From Citrobacter amalonaticus (GTDB lineage: Bacteria > Pseudomonadota > Gammaproteobacteria > Enterobacterales > Enterobacteriaceae), in the NCBI RefSeq assembly GCF_018323885.1, contig NZ_AP024585.1:3348001-3412000 (forward strand): a stretch of 64,000 bases of DNA. The letters run 5' to 3'. Positions 32,668 through 38,212 of this stretch are shown piece by piece (position 1 is the first letter of the stretch; every line of letters starts with the position of its first letter). Made by a program: the position numbers and the translations under genes. The notes beneath the pieces are model-generated. The model searched no databases and was not told the origin of the DNA. It worked only from the letters and a program-made list of their open reading frames with translations.

Positions 32668-33510
32668 TCACTCCCGCCGTAGTGCTTCGAGAAAAGCCTG
32701 CGGCGTCATCTCCCCCAGTTTTTTCTGCGCCTTGCCGGTATTATAACTTTCGCAAATTTCTGCCAGCAGTTGACTGGCTGATACGTCCTTTACCCGCGGC
32801 ACAATCGCCACCAGCGGAAGGTTAACCTGAATCGCATTCTGCACGTTATGGTTTATGTAGTGCGTCATTCCTCGTGCTATCAGCCCCTGTTCCAGCCCAT
32901 CAAGATGGGTGTCAGAAAAGAATGTCTCAATAGATTGTATATCAGCCGGACAGGCTGTCAGCAGCGCATCCAGCCATTTCATGACCAGATGCGGCGAAAT
33001 CCCGGCATACAGTCGCGCGTAGCACCAGCCGCTCACCGGTTCACGAGCCCAGAGCACATGATGCTCCCCGCCATCCTCCATATGCAGTGAAAGCGGGAGG
33101 TGATGCACCTCAAGCACATGAGGGAAATGCCCGGCCTTCAGTGCCTTTTTCCCCTGCAAAAGTGTCCCCTGACGCATCAACCTTGCAGGTTTAAGATAAC
33201 GATTTAGCGTCGCACGGGAAACGTGAATGCCCAGCCCTTCATTGACCAGTAACAAAAGCTCATCTAACGGCGCGCCGGTCGCATCCCGCAGTCCGTTAAT
33301 CAGCGCAATCTGCTCTTGTCTCATCGCTTTATGTATCACTTTCGGCGTAGTTTGCCGATCGGCAGTCTGCTCACGTTGTCGCCAGCGCCTGACCGTGGTG
33401 ACGGAAATCCCCAGCTCAGCGGCCAGCGCTCTGTCGCTTTTATCCGACTGCTGCAGATAACGACGGATGCGCGGTGTCGTGGTGGCATTGGCATGCAGTT
33501 TTATTTCCAT
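32668..33510 (-). CDS. Transposase-derived HTH protein with degenerate integrase core
   Basis: A 280-residue protein I do not recognise by name. An N-terminal HTH (residues about 26-47, DRALAAELGISVTTVRRWR) and a second HTH-like segment (about 80-106) resemble IS481-type transposases. Residues about 130-275 align with the integrase core, but the first catalytic Asp appears as Glu134 (HVLEVHHLP), Asp200 remains (FFSDTHLDG) and the third catalytic Glu region is missing. The tail SYNTGKAQKKLGEMTPQAFL fits the integrase end. The start at 33510 has AAGGA 7 bases upstream. No terminal inverted repeats are visible. It is intact and divergent from a sugar/peptide operon, so a DNA-binding regulator is plausible; a decayed transposase is the alternative. 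Confidence 0.65.
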   Translation of the reverse strand: MEIKLHANATTTPRIRRYLQQSDKSDRALAAELGISVTTVRRWRQREQTADRQTTPKVIHKAMRQEQIALINGLRDATGAPLDELLLLVNEGLGIHVSRATLNRYLKPARLMRQGTLLQGKKALKAGHFPHVLEVHHLPLSLHMEDGGEHHVLWAREPVSGWCYARLYAGISPHLVMKWLDALLTACPADIQSIETFFSDTHLDGLEQGLIARGMTHYINHNVQNAIQVNLPLVAIVPRVKDVSASQLLAEICESYNTGKAQKKLGEMTPQAFLEALRRE

Positions 33511-33574
33511 CGCCAAATCCTTTTCCAAAGAGATAACTAATCATATGAGATTTATATTTATAAGGCGAACACAT

Positions 33575-33617
33575 TGTGACCAGATTCACCTTTCGACTGC
33601 GGAGCTTCCCTGATAAT
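33575..33617 (+). promoter_or_regulatory. CRP site and -10 element of the EIIC operon
   Basis: TGTGA-CCAGAT-TCACC at 33575-33590 matches the CRP consensus at 9 of 10 positions. GATAAT at 33612-33617 is a good -10. With transcription starting near 33624, the CRP centre is at -41.5, the class II geometry. The start codon is about 43 bases further on. The assignment is inferred from sequence. Confidence 0.6.
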
Positions 33618-33666
33618 CCTCTGGCATACCATAAATACTCTCATCCGATCTTGTACGGAGTTCACA

Positions 33667-34986
33667 ATGAACAATGTTCTGGGATTTCTTGAAGCAAAAC
33701 TGATGCCGCTTGCGGCCAAAACGGCGCAGCAGCGTTACCTGGGCGCGATCCGCGGCGCTTATGTTTCCTTTATGCCGTTCATTATCGTCGGCTCCATTCT
33801 GCTGGTTATTTCCTCCTTTCCGAACCAGACCTATCAGCAATTTATGTCTGGCGCGTTTGGTGAAAGCTGGAGCAGTATTATCGAGATCCCGTTTAACGCG
33901 GTGTTCTCAACGATGTCACTGTTCATCAGTTTCCTGGTTGCCTACCGTCTGGCGGAACATTACGGTGAAGACCGTATCTCCTGCGGCATCCTGGCGCTGG
34001 TCTGCTTCCTGATCCTCACCCCGTTTATCAAAGTTGCGGATAACGGCGGCATCACCGTGATACCAGTAGAATGGATCGGCACTAAAGGGCTATTTGTGGC
34101 AATGATTGGCTCGTTGCTGTGGACGGAATTGTTCTGCTGGCTGAAACGCAAAAAACTGGTCATCAAGATGCCCGAAGGGGTTCCGCCTGCCGTGCAGGAA
34201 TCATTTGCCGCGCTGATCCCCGCCCTGTTGGTAATGATCCTGGTGCTGATTATTCGCATCCTGTTTGAAAATACCCACTACCAGACAATTCACCGCTTTA
34301 TCTATGAAGTGGTTGCGACGCCGGTTCGTCACTATGGCACCTCCTATTTTGGCGCGCTGATGACGGTTTTCAGCATCACGATTTTATGGTCGGTAGGGAT
34401 TAACTCTGGCTCAATGATCAACGGCATTATCCGGCCACTGTGGATGGAGAACCAGACGGATAACATCGCCGCCATTCAGGCGGGCGTTACGCCACCGCAT
34501 ATTATCACCGAGCAGTTTTTTGACATGATCTGGATGGGGGGCGCTGGCGCAACCTTATCGCTGGTTATCGCAATGCTGATTTTTGCCCGCAGTAAAAACA
34601 TGCGGGAAGTGGCCCGGCTGGGGGCTGGCGCATCGATTTTCAATATCAACGAACCCATTTTGTTCGGTCTGCCGGTCATCATGAACCCCATCATGCTAAT
34701 ACCGTTCAACCTGGTGCCTCTGGTGTTAGTCACCATCCAGTACGTCGCAATGAAAATTGGCGCTGTTGCCGTCACGACGGGCGTGTTTATTCCATGGACG
34801 CTGCCGCCGGTTATCAGTGGTTTTATCGTCACAGGCCATCTCAGCGGTAGCGTCATGCAGATCATCAATTTACTGATTGGCGCAATGCTCTATCTGCCAT
34901 TTATGCGCATTGTCGATAAACAGTACCGCGCGGCGGAAGTCACCACGCTGGCACAAAATGAGAGTACACCCGTTAAACAGGAGTAA
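33667..34986 (+). CDS. PTS EIIC, cellobiose/chitobiose (lactose) family, orphan
   Basis: A 439-residue membrane protein with about ten TM segments, homologous to ChbC/CelB/LicC permeases. It has the family motif INEPILFGLPVIMNP (Glu329) and MPFIIVGSILLVI near the N-terminus. The usual GIHG motif reads GINS at residues 244-247, so the conserved histidine is Asn246. No EIIA or EIIB gene is adjacent, so phosphoryl-transfer partners must be shared or absent. GGAG lies 6 bases before the ATG. The next gene starts 3 bases after the stop. Substrate is unknown; the neighbours suggest a GlcNAc-containing amino acid or peptide. Confidence 0.85.
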   Translation: MNNVLGFLEAKLMPLAAKTAQQRYLGAIRGAYVSFMPFIIVGSILLVISSFPNQTYQQFMSGAFGESWSSIIEIPFNAVFSTMSLFISFLVAYRLAEHYGEDRISCGILALVCFLILTPFIKVADNGGITVIPVEWIGTKGLFVAMIGSLLWTELFCWLKRKKLVIKMPEGVPPAVQESFAALIPALLVMILVLIIRILFENTHYQTIHRFIYEVVATPVRHYGTSYFGALMTVFSITILWSVGINSGSMINGIIRPLWMENQTDNIAAIQAGVTPPHIITEQFFDMIWMGGAGATLSLVIAMLIFARSKNMREVARLGAGASIFNINEPILFGLPVIMNPIMLIPFNLVPLVLVTIQYVAMKIGAVAVTTGVFIPWTLPPVISGFIVTGHLSGSVMQIINLLIGAMLYLPFMRIVDKQYRAAEVTTLAQNESTPVKQE

Positions 34987-34989
34987 AAC

Positions 34990-35946
34990 ATGTGGGGAAT
35001 TATCGCCACCTGGCGAATGGCGCTTGAAGGCGTTACTGAGTCCGCTTCCGCGCTGGCTGCAGGCCAAACAGCGGCCAGTGCGGTAGTCGATGCCGTTGCC
35101 GCAGTTGAGGACTTCCCATTATACAAGTCCGTTGGCTACGGCGGACTGCCAACCGAAAAGGGTGAGGTGGAACTGGATGCCGCATTCATGGATGGCGACA
35201 CGCTGGCGTTCGGCGCCGTGGGCAATCTCGTGGATATCGCCAATCCGGTACGCGTTGCGCACGCCCTGAGTCGTCAACGGTATAACAGCCTGCTTGTCGG
35301 CCAGGGTGCCCGAGAATGGGCGTTAAGCCAGGGGTTTGCAGAAAAAACCATGCTTACCGACCGCGCCATCCAACACTATCGCAAACGCTGCCGCGAGACG
35401 CTGGATAAGGGACTGAGTCCTTATGACGGCCATGATACCGTCGGCATTATCGGACTGGACACACAAGGTTCGATGAGCGTGGCGACCTCCACCAGCGGTC
35501 TGTTTATGAAAAAACGCGGTCGTCTGGGAGATTCCCCGATTATTGGTTCCGGCTTCTACTGCGACAGTCAAATCGGCGCCGCGACCGCCACTGGCGTTGG
35601 CGAAGACCTGATGAAGGGGTGCACCAGCTACGAAATCGTTCGCCGTATGGCACAGGGCATGACGCCGCAGCAGGCTGCGGACTCCGTGGTTTTTGAACTG
35701 GAGGACAACCTGATGTCCCGCTTTGGCAGGGTGGGCGATTTATCCGTCGTGTGTATGAATCACCGGGGAGAATTTGGCGCGGCGACCAATATCAAAACCT
35801 TCTCGTTTACCGTTGCCACCGCCAGTCATCCACTCACCGTCTATCTCGCGGAACGTCGGCACGAAAAGACGTATTACCAGCCAGTCGATGAGGCGTGGAT
35901 GCAGGCCTATGCGGCACGGATCCGTGCGCCAATAGAGGAAGAATAA
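34990..35946 (+). CDS. N4-(beta-N-acetylglucosaminyl)-L-asparaginase (glycosylasparaginase)
   Basis: A 318-residue Ntn-hydrolase that by family splits the GlcNAc-Asn bond, giving aspartate and an amino sugar. The autoprocessing/nucleophile motif is HDTVG with Thr150. Arg178 and Asp181 in GRLGDSPIIGSG match the substrate-binding pair of the Flavobacterium enzyme, and Trp8 matches its substrate-contacting tryptophan. SVGYGGLP near residue 47 is also typical. There is no signal peptide, unlike the Flavobacterium enzyme, so it should act in the cytoplasm. AGGAG precedes the start. The stop overlaps the next start (TAATG). Isoaspartyl peptidases share the fold, but HDTVG plus the Arg/Asp pair favour glycosylasparaginase. 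Confidence 0.88.
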   Translation: MWGIIATWRMALEGVTESASALAAGQTAASAVVDAVAAVEDFPLYKSVGYGGLPTEKGEVELDAAFMDGDTLAFGAVGNLVDIANPVRVAHALSRQRYNSLLVGQGAREWALSQGFAEKTMLTDRAIQHYRKRCRETLDKGLSPYDGHDTVGIIGLDTQGSMSVATSTSGLFMKKRGRLGDSPIIGSGFYCDSQIGAATATGVGEDLMKGCTSYEIVRRMAQGMTPQQAADSVVFELEDNLMSRFGRVGDLSVVCMNHRGEFGAATNIKTFSFTVATASHPLTVYLAERRHEKTYYQPVDEAWMQAYAARIRAPIEEE

Positions 35947-37391
35947 TGATGACATATCAGTTGATTCAGTCCCTTTCAGAGGCGCAACCCAACGCGCACC
36001 TGATTGCCCGTCCCACAAGCCAACAGTTACCAGACACCGCGCTGATAAACGAAATGCGTGCCACGGGTAACATGGCGGATACCTGTTTTGGCTGCGCCCC
36101 TTACAAACGCATCACCCTCATTCCATCAGCACTGTGGCAGGACAACCTGACCGACGGTTTGCTGAACGCATTACGTCCACTGTTCACCACGCCGGTCAGT
36201 TCTCACGTGATCATTGATGTTCGCGAAATACACGAAACCGTGCTGCTTCAGGTTCTGCGTTTTCTGTTCAATCAGGTACATCGCCTTGACGACCTGCAAC
36301 TGAAAACTACAGACAACGCGACGATAAGACTCGACCACATAACGGCGCTTTGTTTACCCGAACAGCGGGAAGCGTTAGAGGAAATTTTCCGTCGGCAGCA
36401 GGCCATTGCCAACGGCATGGTCGCCGCCCGCCGCCTGGCGGATATGCCATCCGAGCAGTGTACGCCGCAGGTCGTTGTCGAAGAGGCCCAACGTCTATGC
36501 GCGGCTTACCCTGACCTGCGCTGCGAAGTGCTGGACGAACAGGCCATCGTAGCGCAAGGCCTTGGCTTGCTGCACGCCGTGGGGAAAGGCTCCAGCCGCC
36601 CGCCCCGCCTGCTGGCGATTCATTACGACGGCGTCAGCAGCGGCCCGGTGCGCAGCTATGTCGGGAAAGGCATCACTTTCGACACCGGCGGTTTGTGGCT
36701 GAAAGAAGGCGCGGGCATGTACACCATGAAGTACGACATGTGCGGCGCAGCCAACGTGCTTGGGCTGATGCTCAGTATTGCCGGGCTGGCGCTGCCGGTT
36801 CGAGTCATGGGCGTACTGGCGCTGGCGGAAAACGCCATTGGTCCCGACGCCATGCAACCGGGTAACGTAGCACGCGCCTGTAACGGGATGACGGTGGAGA
36901 TCAACAACACCGACGCCGAAGGACGACTGGTACTTGCTGACGCCATTGCCTGGGCCAGCCAGCGCCACAAAGAGACTCGCTATATCATTGATTTAGCAAC
37001 GCTGACCGGCGCCGTGGTGAAAGCGCTGGGCTATGAGCTGAGTGGATTGATGACCCAGGATAGCGCGCTGCGTGCGGCGTTAACCGTTGCCGGTGAGCAG
37101 AGCGGAGATAGAGTCTGGTCGCTGCCATTGGACGCTCACCTGAAAAAACAAACGGAGAGCGCGATTGCCGATCTGTGCAATACGCCGACTAACAACGCGG
37201 CAATCAGCGCATCGGCGGCCTGGCTGCTTCATCATTTTTGTCCGGCGACGATTCCATGGGCGCATCTCGACGTCAGCGGTACGGCGTTGTGGCGCGAAGG
37301 GGGAAGAAGCGTGGCATCGGGCAGACCGATTCCACTGCTGATGGAGCATTTACTTAACGATCTGGCAGTTGAGAAGTCCCCCTCTGAGTGA
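35946..37391 (+). CDS. M17-family leucyl aminopeptidase
   Basis: A 481-residue cytosolic di-metal aminopeptidase. All PepA-type active-site residues are present: Lys241 and Asp246 (VGKGITFDTGG), Lys253, Asp264 (MKYDMCGAA), Asp323, Glu325 and Arg327 (NTDAEGRL). The N-terminal domain (1-160) is divergent from PepA and PepB. The ATG at 35946 overlaps the previous stop by one base and has GAGGAAG upstream; the frame extends to 35895 but into the previous gene. In this operon it could trim glycopeptides so that the asparagine becomes free. Specificity is unknown. Confidence 0.9.
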   Translation: MMTYQLIQSLSEAQPNAHLIARPTSQQLPDTALINEMRATGNMADTCFGCAPYKRITLIPSALWQDNLTDGLLNALRPLFTTPVSSHVIIDVREIHETVLLQVLRFLFNQVHRLDDLQLKTTDNATIRLDHITALCLPEQREALEEIFRRQQAIANGMVAARRLADMPSEQCTPQVVVEEAQRLCAAYPDLRCEVLDEQAIVAQGLGLLHAVGKGSSRPPRLLAIHYDGVSSGPVRSYVGKGITFDTGGLWLKEGAGMYTMKYDMCGAANVLGLMLSIAGLALPVRVMGVLALAENAIGPDAMQPGNVARACNGMTVEINNTDAEGRLVLADAIAWASQRHKETRYIIDLATLTGAVVKALGYELSGLMTQDSALRAALTVAGEQSGDRVWSLPLDAHLKKQTESAIADLCNTPTNNAAISASAAWLLHHFCPATIPWAHLDVSGTALWREGGRSVASGRPIPLLMEHLLNDLAVEKSPSE

Positions 37392-37510: not shown

Positions 37511-38212
37511 CTAGAGCTTCAGAATTTCTTTCACGAACGGAATGGTCAATTTGCGCTGCGCGGAGATGGAGGCGTGATCAAGCTGATCGAGCGTCATAAA
37601 CAGCGTGCGCATTTCTCTGTCGAGCCGTTTGAGCAAGAAGCGCCCCACGTCTTCCGGGAGTTCAAATCCGCGCAGTCGGGCGCGTAGCTGTAGCGCCTGC
37701 AGCTTATCTTCATCCGACAGCGGTTGCAGCTTGTAGATTTGCCCCCAATCCAGACGCGAGGCCAGATCGGGCAACCCCAGCTTTAACTGCCGTGGAGGAC
37801 GATCGCCGGTGATCAGTAACCGCGTTTTTCCGGATTCCAGAATGCGGTTGTAGAGATCAAATATCGCCATCTCCCACTCTTCATCACCCGCGACACATTC
37901 AATATTGTCGATACAGACTAACGACAGGTGTTCCATCCCGTCGAGCACTTCCGGTACAAACCAGGTGCGCTTGTCCAGCGGCACATAGCCCACGGCATCA
38001 CCACGCTGCGATAATTCAGCACAGGCAGCATGCAGCAAATGGCTGCGGCCGGCGCCTTCACGCGACCAGAGATAGATGTATCCGCTATGCTCCTGGCGCA
38101 GCACGTTTTGCAGTGCGGCCAGTAAAGAGGCGTTATCTCCCGGCCAGAAACTTGCAAACGTTTCGTCGTCAGGCAGATAAAGTGGCAAAGAGAGCTGTGC
38201 CGGTGTGTTCAG
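37511..38212 (-). CDS. hda: Hda, DnaA-related regulator, CTG start
   Basis: A 233-residue AAA+ protein that with the DNA-bound beta clamp triggers DnaA-ATP hydrolysis (RIDA). The N-terminus from CTG at 38212 reads [16 protein letters not shown] and contains the clamp-binding peptide QLSLPL. The CTG has GAGG 5 bases upstream and restores the E. coli length; the E. coli gene is known to use CUG. Starting at the next usable codon (TTG, 38188) would delete the clamp-binding motif. The P-loop is degenerate ([10 protein letters not shown]), as in the family. DnaA-like box VII/sensor regions follow. Confidence 0.93.

Follow-up and report, generated by a model that had tools for sequence, protein, structure and literature searches.

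The use of a glycosylated asparagine is familiar from Salmonella, whose fructose-asparagine system relies on a transporter, kinase and deglycase that are not known to be related to the genes considered here. In Enterococcus faecalis, uptake is reportedly coupled to phosphorylation, with enzyme IIA (EIIA) of the phosphotransferase system (PTS) encoded elsewhere and the glycosylasparaginase EgaG splitting the 6-phosphate. By its title, Combret et al. 2024 ties the use of N-acetylglucosamine-L-asparagine (GlcNAc-Asn) in E. faecalis to the ega locus, and PMC11160706 lists EgaG, EIIB and EIIC in this locus and places the genes for GntR and a dipeptidase behind a separate promoter. In Lactobacillus casei, the alf-2 operon groups AsnA2, a glycosylasparaginase that has no leader, with genes for a permease and a peptidase, and the glycoamino acid serves as carbon source (PMC6960285). 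Here we describe a candidate counterpart in Citrobacter amalonaticus, a three-gene operon encoding an EIIC, a glycosylasparaginase (AGA) and an M17 peptidase, located in a 64,000-nucleotide stretch of contig NZ_AP024585.1 (positions 3,348,001 to 3,412,000; hereafter the window).

Results

The operon lies on the forward strand of the window and consists of the EIIC gene (33667..34986), the AGA gene (34990..35946) and the M17 gene (35946..37391), with 3 bases separating the first two and the ATG of the third overlapping the AGA stop by 1 base. All three families were matched by profile: the EIIC, which carries the motif WSVGINSG, belongs to the lactose/cellobiose/chitobiose family (PF02378, 204 bits; TIGR00359/TIGR00410, 437 bits), the AGA is an N4-(beta-N-acetylglucosaminyl)-L-asparaginase (PF01112, 215 bits), and the third product is a leucyl-aminopeptidase-like peptidase of 481 aa (PF00883, 346 bits). 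The three closely spaced genes of the original prediction, which had been made from the sequence of this DNA alone, are borne out, although the operon start that it gave, 33510, is the start codon of a divergent gene.

Searching 392 genomes of the family at an AGA threshold of E <= 1e-40 returned AGA in 47, one of which (G264; our genome and locus labels begin with G and L) holds only a 47% paralog and was dropped, and in each of the 46 operon genomes that remained the EIIC, the AGA and the M17 peptidase were all seen. The best 80 loci were kept as named loci, 63 of them gammaproteobacterial-type (including L085, filed under Chryseobacterium) and 17 clostridial. An EIIC lies at most 3.5 kb from AGA in 71/80 of these, and an M17 peptidase does so in 60/63 gammaproteobacterial-type loci, those without it coming from Enterovibrio (two) and Photobacterium (one). 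This proximity and the family-wide co-occurrence, a check that had been proposed with the prediction, rule out a chance neighborhood and confirm one tight, real and conserved operon. The named loci include Citrobacter, Enterobacter, Klebsiella oxytoca and kin, Lelliottia and Kluyvera; the closest AGA among the matches listed is from Citrobacter amalonaticus (95% identity), and relatives of the operon also occur in Vibrionaceae, Pasteurellaceae, Clostridia and Enterococcus. In a search of 5,426 Escherichia coli genomes that was sensitive down to about 65-70% DNA identity, the operon went unmatched save for an EIIC stretch of about 70 bases in 31.

The window EIIC has the domain and the NINEP motif expected of a lactose/cellobiose-type PTS permease, and neither EIIB nor EIIA is encoded alongside it. 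Homologues of both come after it in the operons of 10/80 named loci (L060, L068, L069, L072, L073, L074, L078, L079, L088 and L093), which come from Serratia, Atlantibacter, Izhakiella, Providencia, Enterovibrio, Photobacterium and Histophilus and from two records filed as Klebsiella and Cedecea, with PF02302 and PF02255 confirmed for L078 and the rest assigned by homology. Of the clostridial loci, nine contain an EIIC; an EIIB homologue is present in all nine and an EIIA homologue in six, and in Enterococcus gilvus (L212) the order is GntR, Sapep dipeptidase, AGA (51% identical to that of the window), EIIB, EIIC and EIIA. Because both partners are encoded in the operons of these relatives, the window EIIC is a derived orphan, produced by secondary loss; the family and the orphan state that had been predicted for it both stand, with the amendment that its relatives keep both partners. 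Buttiauxella/Cedecea-type loci have an EIIB only (L080, L082, L089), an EIIB matched in two pieces (L083) or none seen (L081, L084, L086, L087, L091, L092), and look like stages of losing the in-operon EIIA and then the EIIB.

AGA-linked EIICs read GIN at a site where paralogs in the source genome and Bacillus cereus ChbC (3qnq, 374 bits), the sole solved relative found, read GIH. The motif was located in 72/80 named loci, always with Asn, the other eight showing no EIIC, and in 45/46 family operon loci, the EIIC of the remaining genome (G134, locus L189) having an in-frame stop just before it. In the tree, a single branch sets off each of the two groups, Gram-negative and Gram-positive AGA-linked EIICs (98/99 and 100/100), but ChbC, which has His, joins the Gram-positive group at 93/90, in an unstarred position with long branches, and the Asn may have had one origin or two. 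The literature searched contained no usable papers on EIIC His/Glu contacts or on the AGA Trp site.

Outside the window, the 5.07 Mb source genome encodes an EIIB-EIIA pair (PF02302, PF02255) without an EIIC at L128:6226-6853, between rpoC and a gene that by reading resembles a diguanylate cyclase. We scored this trans EIIB as present at 85% identity or above (in G387 over 76 of 102 residues). A full in-operon EIIB and EIIA occurs in 9/46 operon genomes, eight of which lack the rpoC-linked EIIB, and the remaining 37 have the rpoC-linked EIIB without exception (37/37); 33 of these have no in-operon component, three have an in-operon EIIB only, and in one (G074) the contig stops 199 bases past M17, beyond which in-operon EIIB/EIIA may lie. 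A Fisher test of in-operon pair against rpoC-linked EIIB over the 46 genomes gives 3e-8 with kinship ignored. In an overlapping set of 37 loci that we picked from the 80 named, the trans EIIB is absent from 9/10 full-pair loci and present in 26/27 others (8e-7, kinship again ignored); the one locus that departs from this, L057 (G401), is in a record of 2.8 Mb. This complementarity is suggestive. The trans EIIB is also 43-49% identical to five gammaproteobacterial in-operon EIIBs, and of the source-genome EIIBs compared (9 of 13) it is by bits the best match to each of the five.

A second orphan EIIC (L129:3846-5192) lies about 450 kb from the rpoC-linked pair in the source genome, and the two likely constitute a split PTS. 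The trans EIIB occurs in 90/392 family genomes and this EIIC in 89 of those 90, the sole genome without it being 49% complete.

The AGA begins MWGIIATW, with no leader by reading, and contains HDTVG at residues 148-152, which includes the predicted nucleophile Thr150, and RLGDSP at residues 178-183; H148, D149 and T150 are invariant in the alignment of homologues. Among solved chains it is closest to glycosylasparaginases, at 192 bits (1p4k and kin), ahead of an 'uncharacterized protein' (4o47, 127.5 bits) and of isoaspartyl peptidases (at most 122 bits). The N-terminal nucleophile (Ntn) family with its Thr in H-D-T and the closer kinship to glycosylasparaginases (EC 3.5.1.26) agree with the leaderless enzyme, intact in HDTVG and the substrate Arg/Asp, that had been predicted.

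The sequence ATWRMA is present in the AGA of 80/80 named loci (in eight of them no EIIC is visible within the stretch examined) and of 46/46 family operon loci, whether or not the operon of the lineage includes EIIB/EIIA; it recurs in the E. gilvus AGA and in malX/nagB-linked AGA paralogs. More broadly, TWRM is found in 226/240 AGA homologues, 12 of the others, mostly fragments, lacking a TW motif within their first 60 residues and two matching an earlier TWG, whereas 14/14 other Pseudomonadota AGAs, classed as exported by their leader-like N-termini, have TW[DEN] (this count excludes L225, which has one in-frame TGA). The exported-type AGAs of Hymenobacter and Elizabethkingia likewise have TW[DEN]. 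The sugar pocket of the Elizabethkingia enzyme is lined by this Trp and by the residue two positions after it, and the Arg of Thr-Trp-Arg-Met would suit a 6-phosphate on the sugar.

Further AGA relatives are listed from other Enterococcus and Vagococcus. Two Enterobacteriaceae genomes (G264 and G303) contain a second PTS-linked AGA operon (L173:1936-6223 and L174:1892-6222), with a glucose/maltose-type EIICB, a NagB-like deaminase, an AGA paralog 46-48% identical that has ATWRMA, and by reading a convergent LacI-like regulator (Pfam and NCBIfam support from L173 only), which suggests another pathway for a phosphorylated glycosyl-Asn. On a Hymenobacter tibetensis plasmid (L213) an AGA with a leader-like N-terminus stands beside CutC, GH92, ROK and nagB genes, and a CutC-looking gene also follows, by reading, in several clostridial AGA loci.

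The predicted M17 aminopeptidase was upheld, its motifs GKGITFDTGG and NTDAEGRLVL aligning with a solved M17; these we take to hold the metal ligands. The peptidase adjoining AGA differs by phylum, being M17 in Gram-negatives, an M20 peptidase in C. difficile (L099), where it is the gene after AGA and is similar by reading in other clostridial loci, and the Sapep dipeptidase in Enterococcus gilvus. Because unrelated peptidase families are placed beside the same enzyme, a role in trimming the peptide for AGA is supported.

Upstream of the operon, on the reverse strand, lies a divergent gene (32668..33510) for an IS481-transposase-like DNA-binding protein of 280 aa. Its score against NF033577 (IS481) is 54.5 bits, below the cut-off of 224, and no acidic residue is invariant after alignment position 106, which sets it apart from IS481 transposases proper, and its N-terminal helix-turn-helix region is strongly conserved. 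A predicted model (pLDDT 83, pTM 0.70) matched IstA and retroviral integrases in Foldseek, with a best E of 7e-8, the superpositions being loose (TM 0.33-0.41, root-mean-square deviation 10-21 A in the rows shown). The gene is present in 46/46 operon genomes and elsewhere in the 392 has a single 29% match (G158). Among the 80 named loci it is upstream and divergent in 47, downstream in 14 and not found within 6 kb in 19 (gammaproteobacterial L090 and L095 and all 17 clostridial loci), and it therefore accompanies the operon itself, not a particular site. In one lineage (L065, Trabulsiella odontotermitis, and L209) it was matched in two pieces.

A CRP-type site, TGTGA-N6-TCAC (33575..33589), falls within the 156 bases that separate the divergent gene from the EIIC gene. 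The window has four CRP-type matches, two of which are one palindrome on both strands, against 0.62 expected, and a site at most 200 bases upstream of the EIIC match was found in 51/62 loci, L095 having been left out. Both the transposase-like neighbor and this site had been overlooked in the original prediction; the operon is probably under CRP, and the IS481-like protein is probably a dedicated operon regulator derived from a transposase. Downstream, the operon is followed on the reverse strand by an hda-like gene (37511..38188).

Discussion

On balance we favor a PTS-type operon for glycosyl-asparagine scavenging, a reading for which the comparisons of gene content and neighborhood give a somewhat better than even case. 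The EIIC would import GlcNAc-Asn, perhaps together with short GlcNAc-Asn peptides, and the substrate would be phosphorylated at entry by EIIB and EIIA acting in trans, most likely the rpoC-linked pair. The M17 peptidase would then remove peptide residues to free the Asn amino group, and the AGA could split (6-phospho-)GlcNAc-Asn into aspartate and (6-phospho-)1-amino-GlcNAc, the latter decaying to GlcNAc-6-phosphate for NagA/NagB; nagA is present in the source genome. Control would rest with CRP and a dedicated regulator from an IS481-like transposase. Homology, namely a leaderless glycosylasparaginase with a co-operonic sugar permease and peptidase, upholds GlcNAc-Asn as the likeliest substrate, as had been proposed, and mucosal or dietary N-glycoprotein remnants, the origin suggested with it, may be the source. 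The scheme first put forward has no phosphorylation step; because EIIB and EIIA are part of the operon in relatives, uptake probably phosphorylates, and the AGA therefore probably cuts GlcNAc-6-phosphate-Asn.

Several observations weigh against this picture. The trans EIIB margins are narrow for L080 (99 v 94) and L093 (94 v 92), and an exact CRP-type match occurs in 1/10 loci with in-operon EIIB and EIIA (L060 only), and these two points slightly lowered our confidence. The trans EIIB is not the best own match to the clostridial EIIBs, the trans EIIA is best in only 2/4 gammaproteobacterial comparisons, and the EIIA adjoining the trans EIIB was checked in the source genome only. One genome (G332, apparently the same record as L068) has both pairs, and the complementarity may reflect phylogeny, the trans EIIB being present or absent by clade. 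The trans EIIB also occurs in 51/345 genomes without AGA, from which, together with its 89/90 co-occurrence with the L129 EIIC, it follows that the rpoC-linked pair has another partner; it probably already serves that EIIC. The Asn for His of the EIIC could alter phosphotransfer, and the L. casei operon peptidase PepV is dispensable for growth on the glycoamino acid (PMC6960285). The proposed trimming by the aminopeptidase thus gains from the unrelated peptidase families that adjoin AGA across phyla and loses from PepV. An rpoC-linked pair dedicated to the window EIIC was considered separately and rejected on the counts for L129 and the AGA-less genomes.

With EIIB and EIIA absent from the operon and Asn replacing His in the GI[HN] motif, the EIIC might instead act alone as a facilitator or symporter, bringing in unphosphorylated GlcNAc-Asn from which the AGA frees GlcNAc for a kinase, much as L. 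casei takes up its glycoamino acid by a major facilitator superfamily (MFS) permease and needs SugK (PMC6960285). We consider this unlikely, given that the same Asn occurs in EIICs that still have both partners in their operons, for which reason the substitution was rejected as a sign of an uncoupled EIIC, that the AGA motif is identical with and without in-operon partners (46/46), and that the trans EIIB accompanies all 37 genomes in which a full pair was not seen.

The same machinery could also handle another substrate, such as chitobiosyl-Asn, glucosyl-Asn or another glycoamino acid, since the EIIC is of the chitobiose/cellobiose family with ChbC as its only solved relative found, and since the sister AGA type of L173 and L174, linked to a glucose/maltose-type EIICB and a NagB-like gene, indicates that sugar transporters of more than one kind can partner an AGA; the title that ties the AGA-EIIB-EIIC locus of E. 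faecalis to GlcNAc-Asn makes this quite improbable. Least credible, and in our view very improbable, is an isoaspartyl peptidase or plain asparaginase next to an EIIC for an unrelated beta-glucoside. The sole NCBIfam match of the AGA is a beta-aspartyl-peptidase model, though at 116 bits against a 567-bit cut-off, and PF01112 covers glycosylasparaginases and isoaspartyl peptidases together; against this stand the bit scores to solved chains, the retained Thr-Trp of glycosylasparaginases, a second PF01112 gene in the source genome, and the presence of an EIIC near AGA across phyla.

Extending the favored PTS-type reading, we entertain, with rather less than even confidence, a model in which Thr-Trp-Arg-Met marks an AGA subclass for 6-phospho-GlcNAc-Asn that works with a PTS in Gram-negatives and Gram-positives alike, core Enterobacteriaceae shed EIIB/EIIA since the shared housekeeping rpoC pair serves in trans, and a domesticated IS481-like regulator is exclusive to the operon. 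If the scavenging role is correct, many Enterobacteriaceae would feed on the Asn-linked stub of N-glycan breakdown, which the papers found report for Enterococcus and Lactobacillus. The operon would be a natural case of one EIIB-EIIA pair for several EIICs and a candidate case of a transposase turned operon regulator, and W-R-M versus W-[DEN] would offer a sequence test for phospho-glycosylasparaginases.

The idea of glycosyl-asparagine scavenging is not new, being known from E. faecalis ega and L. casei alf-2. Like ega, the window brings together an AGA, a lactose/cellobiose-type EIIC, a peptidase and a regulator candidate, and the AGA of E. gilvus, in an ega-like setting, is the 51% relative described above; unlike ega, it lacks EIIB and EIIA, has an M17 peptidase in place of the dipeptidase and an IS481-like protein in place of GntR, carries a CRP-type site and resides in a Gram-negative host. 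It shares with alf-2 a leaderless glycosylasparaginase with permease and peptidase genes, whereas alf-2 uses an MFS permease and a sugar kinase rather than a PTS, a fucosylated substrate and the dispensable PepV. The Elizabethkingia glycosylasparaginase (1p4k, 9gaa and kin) is alike in enzyme family, nucleophile region and RxGDSP motif, but has TWNF where the window AGA has TWRM and, according to PMC6960285, a signal peptide where the window AGA shows none. B. cereus ChbC belongs to the same EIIC family but reads GIHG, its His taking the place of the Asn of AGA-linked EIICs. No description of an Enterobacteriaceae version was found in the Creative Commons-licensed literature searched, and within the reach of our searches what is new is the Gram-negative branch, the loss of EIIB/EIIA with likely replacement in trans, the Arg mark of the AGA, the M17 partner and the transposase-like companion.

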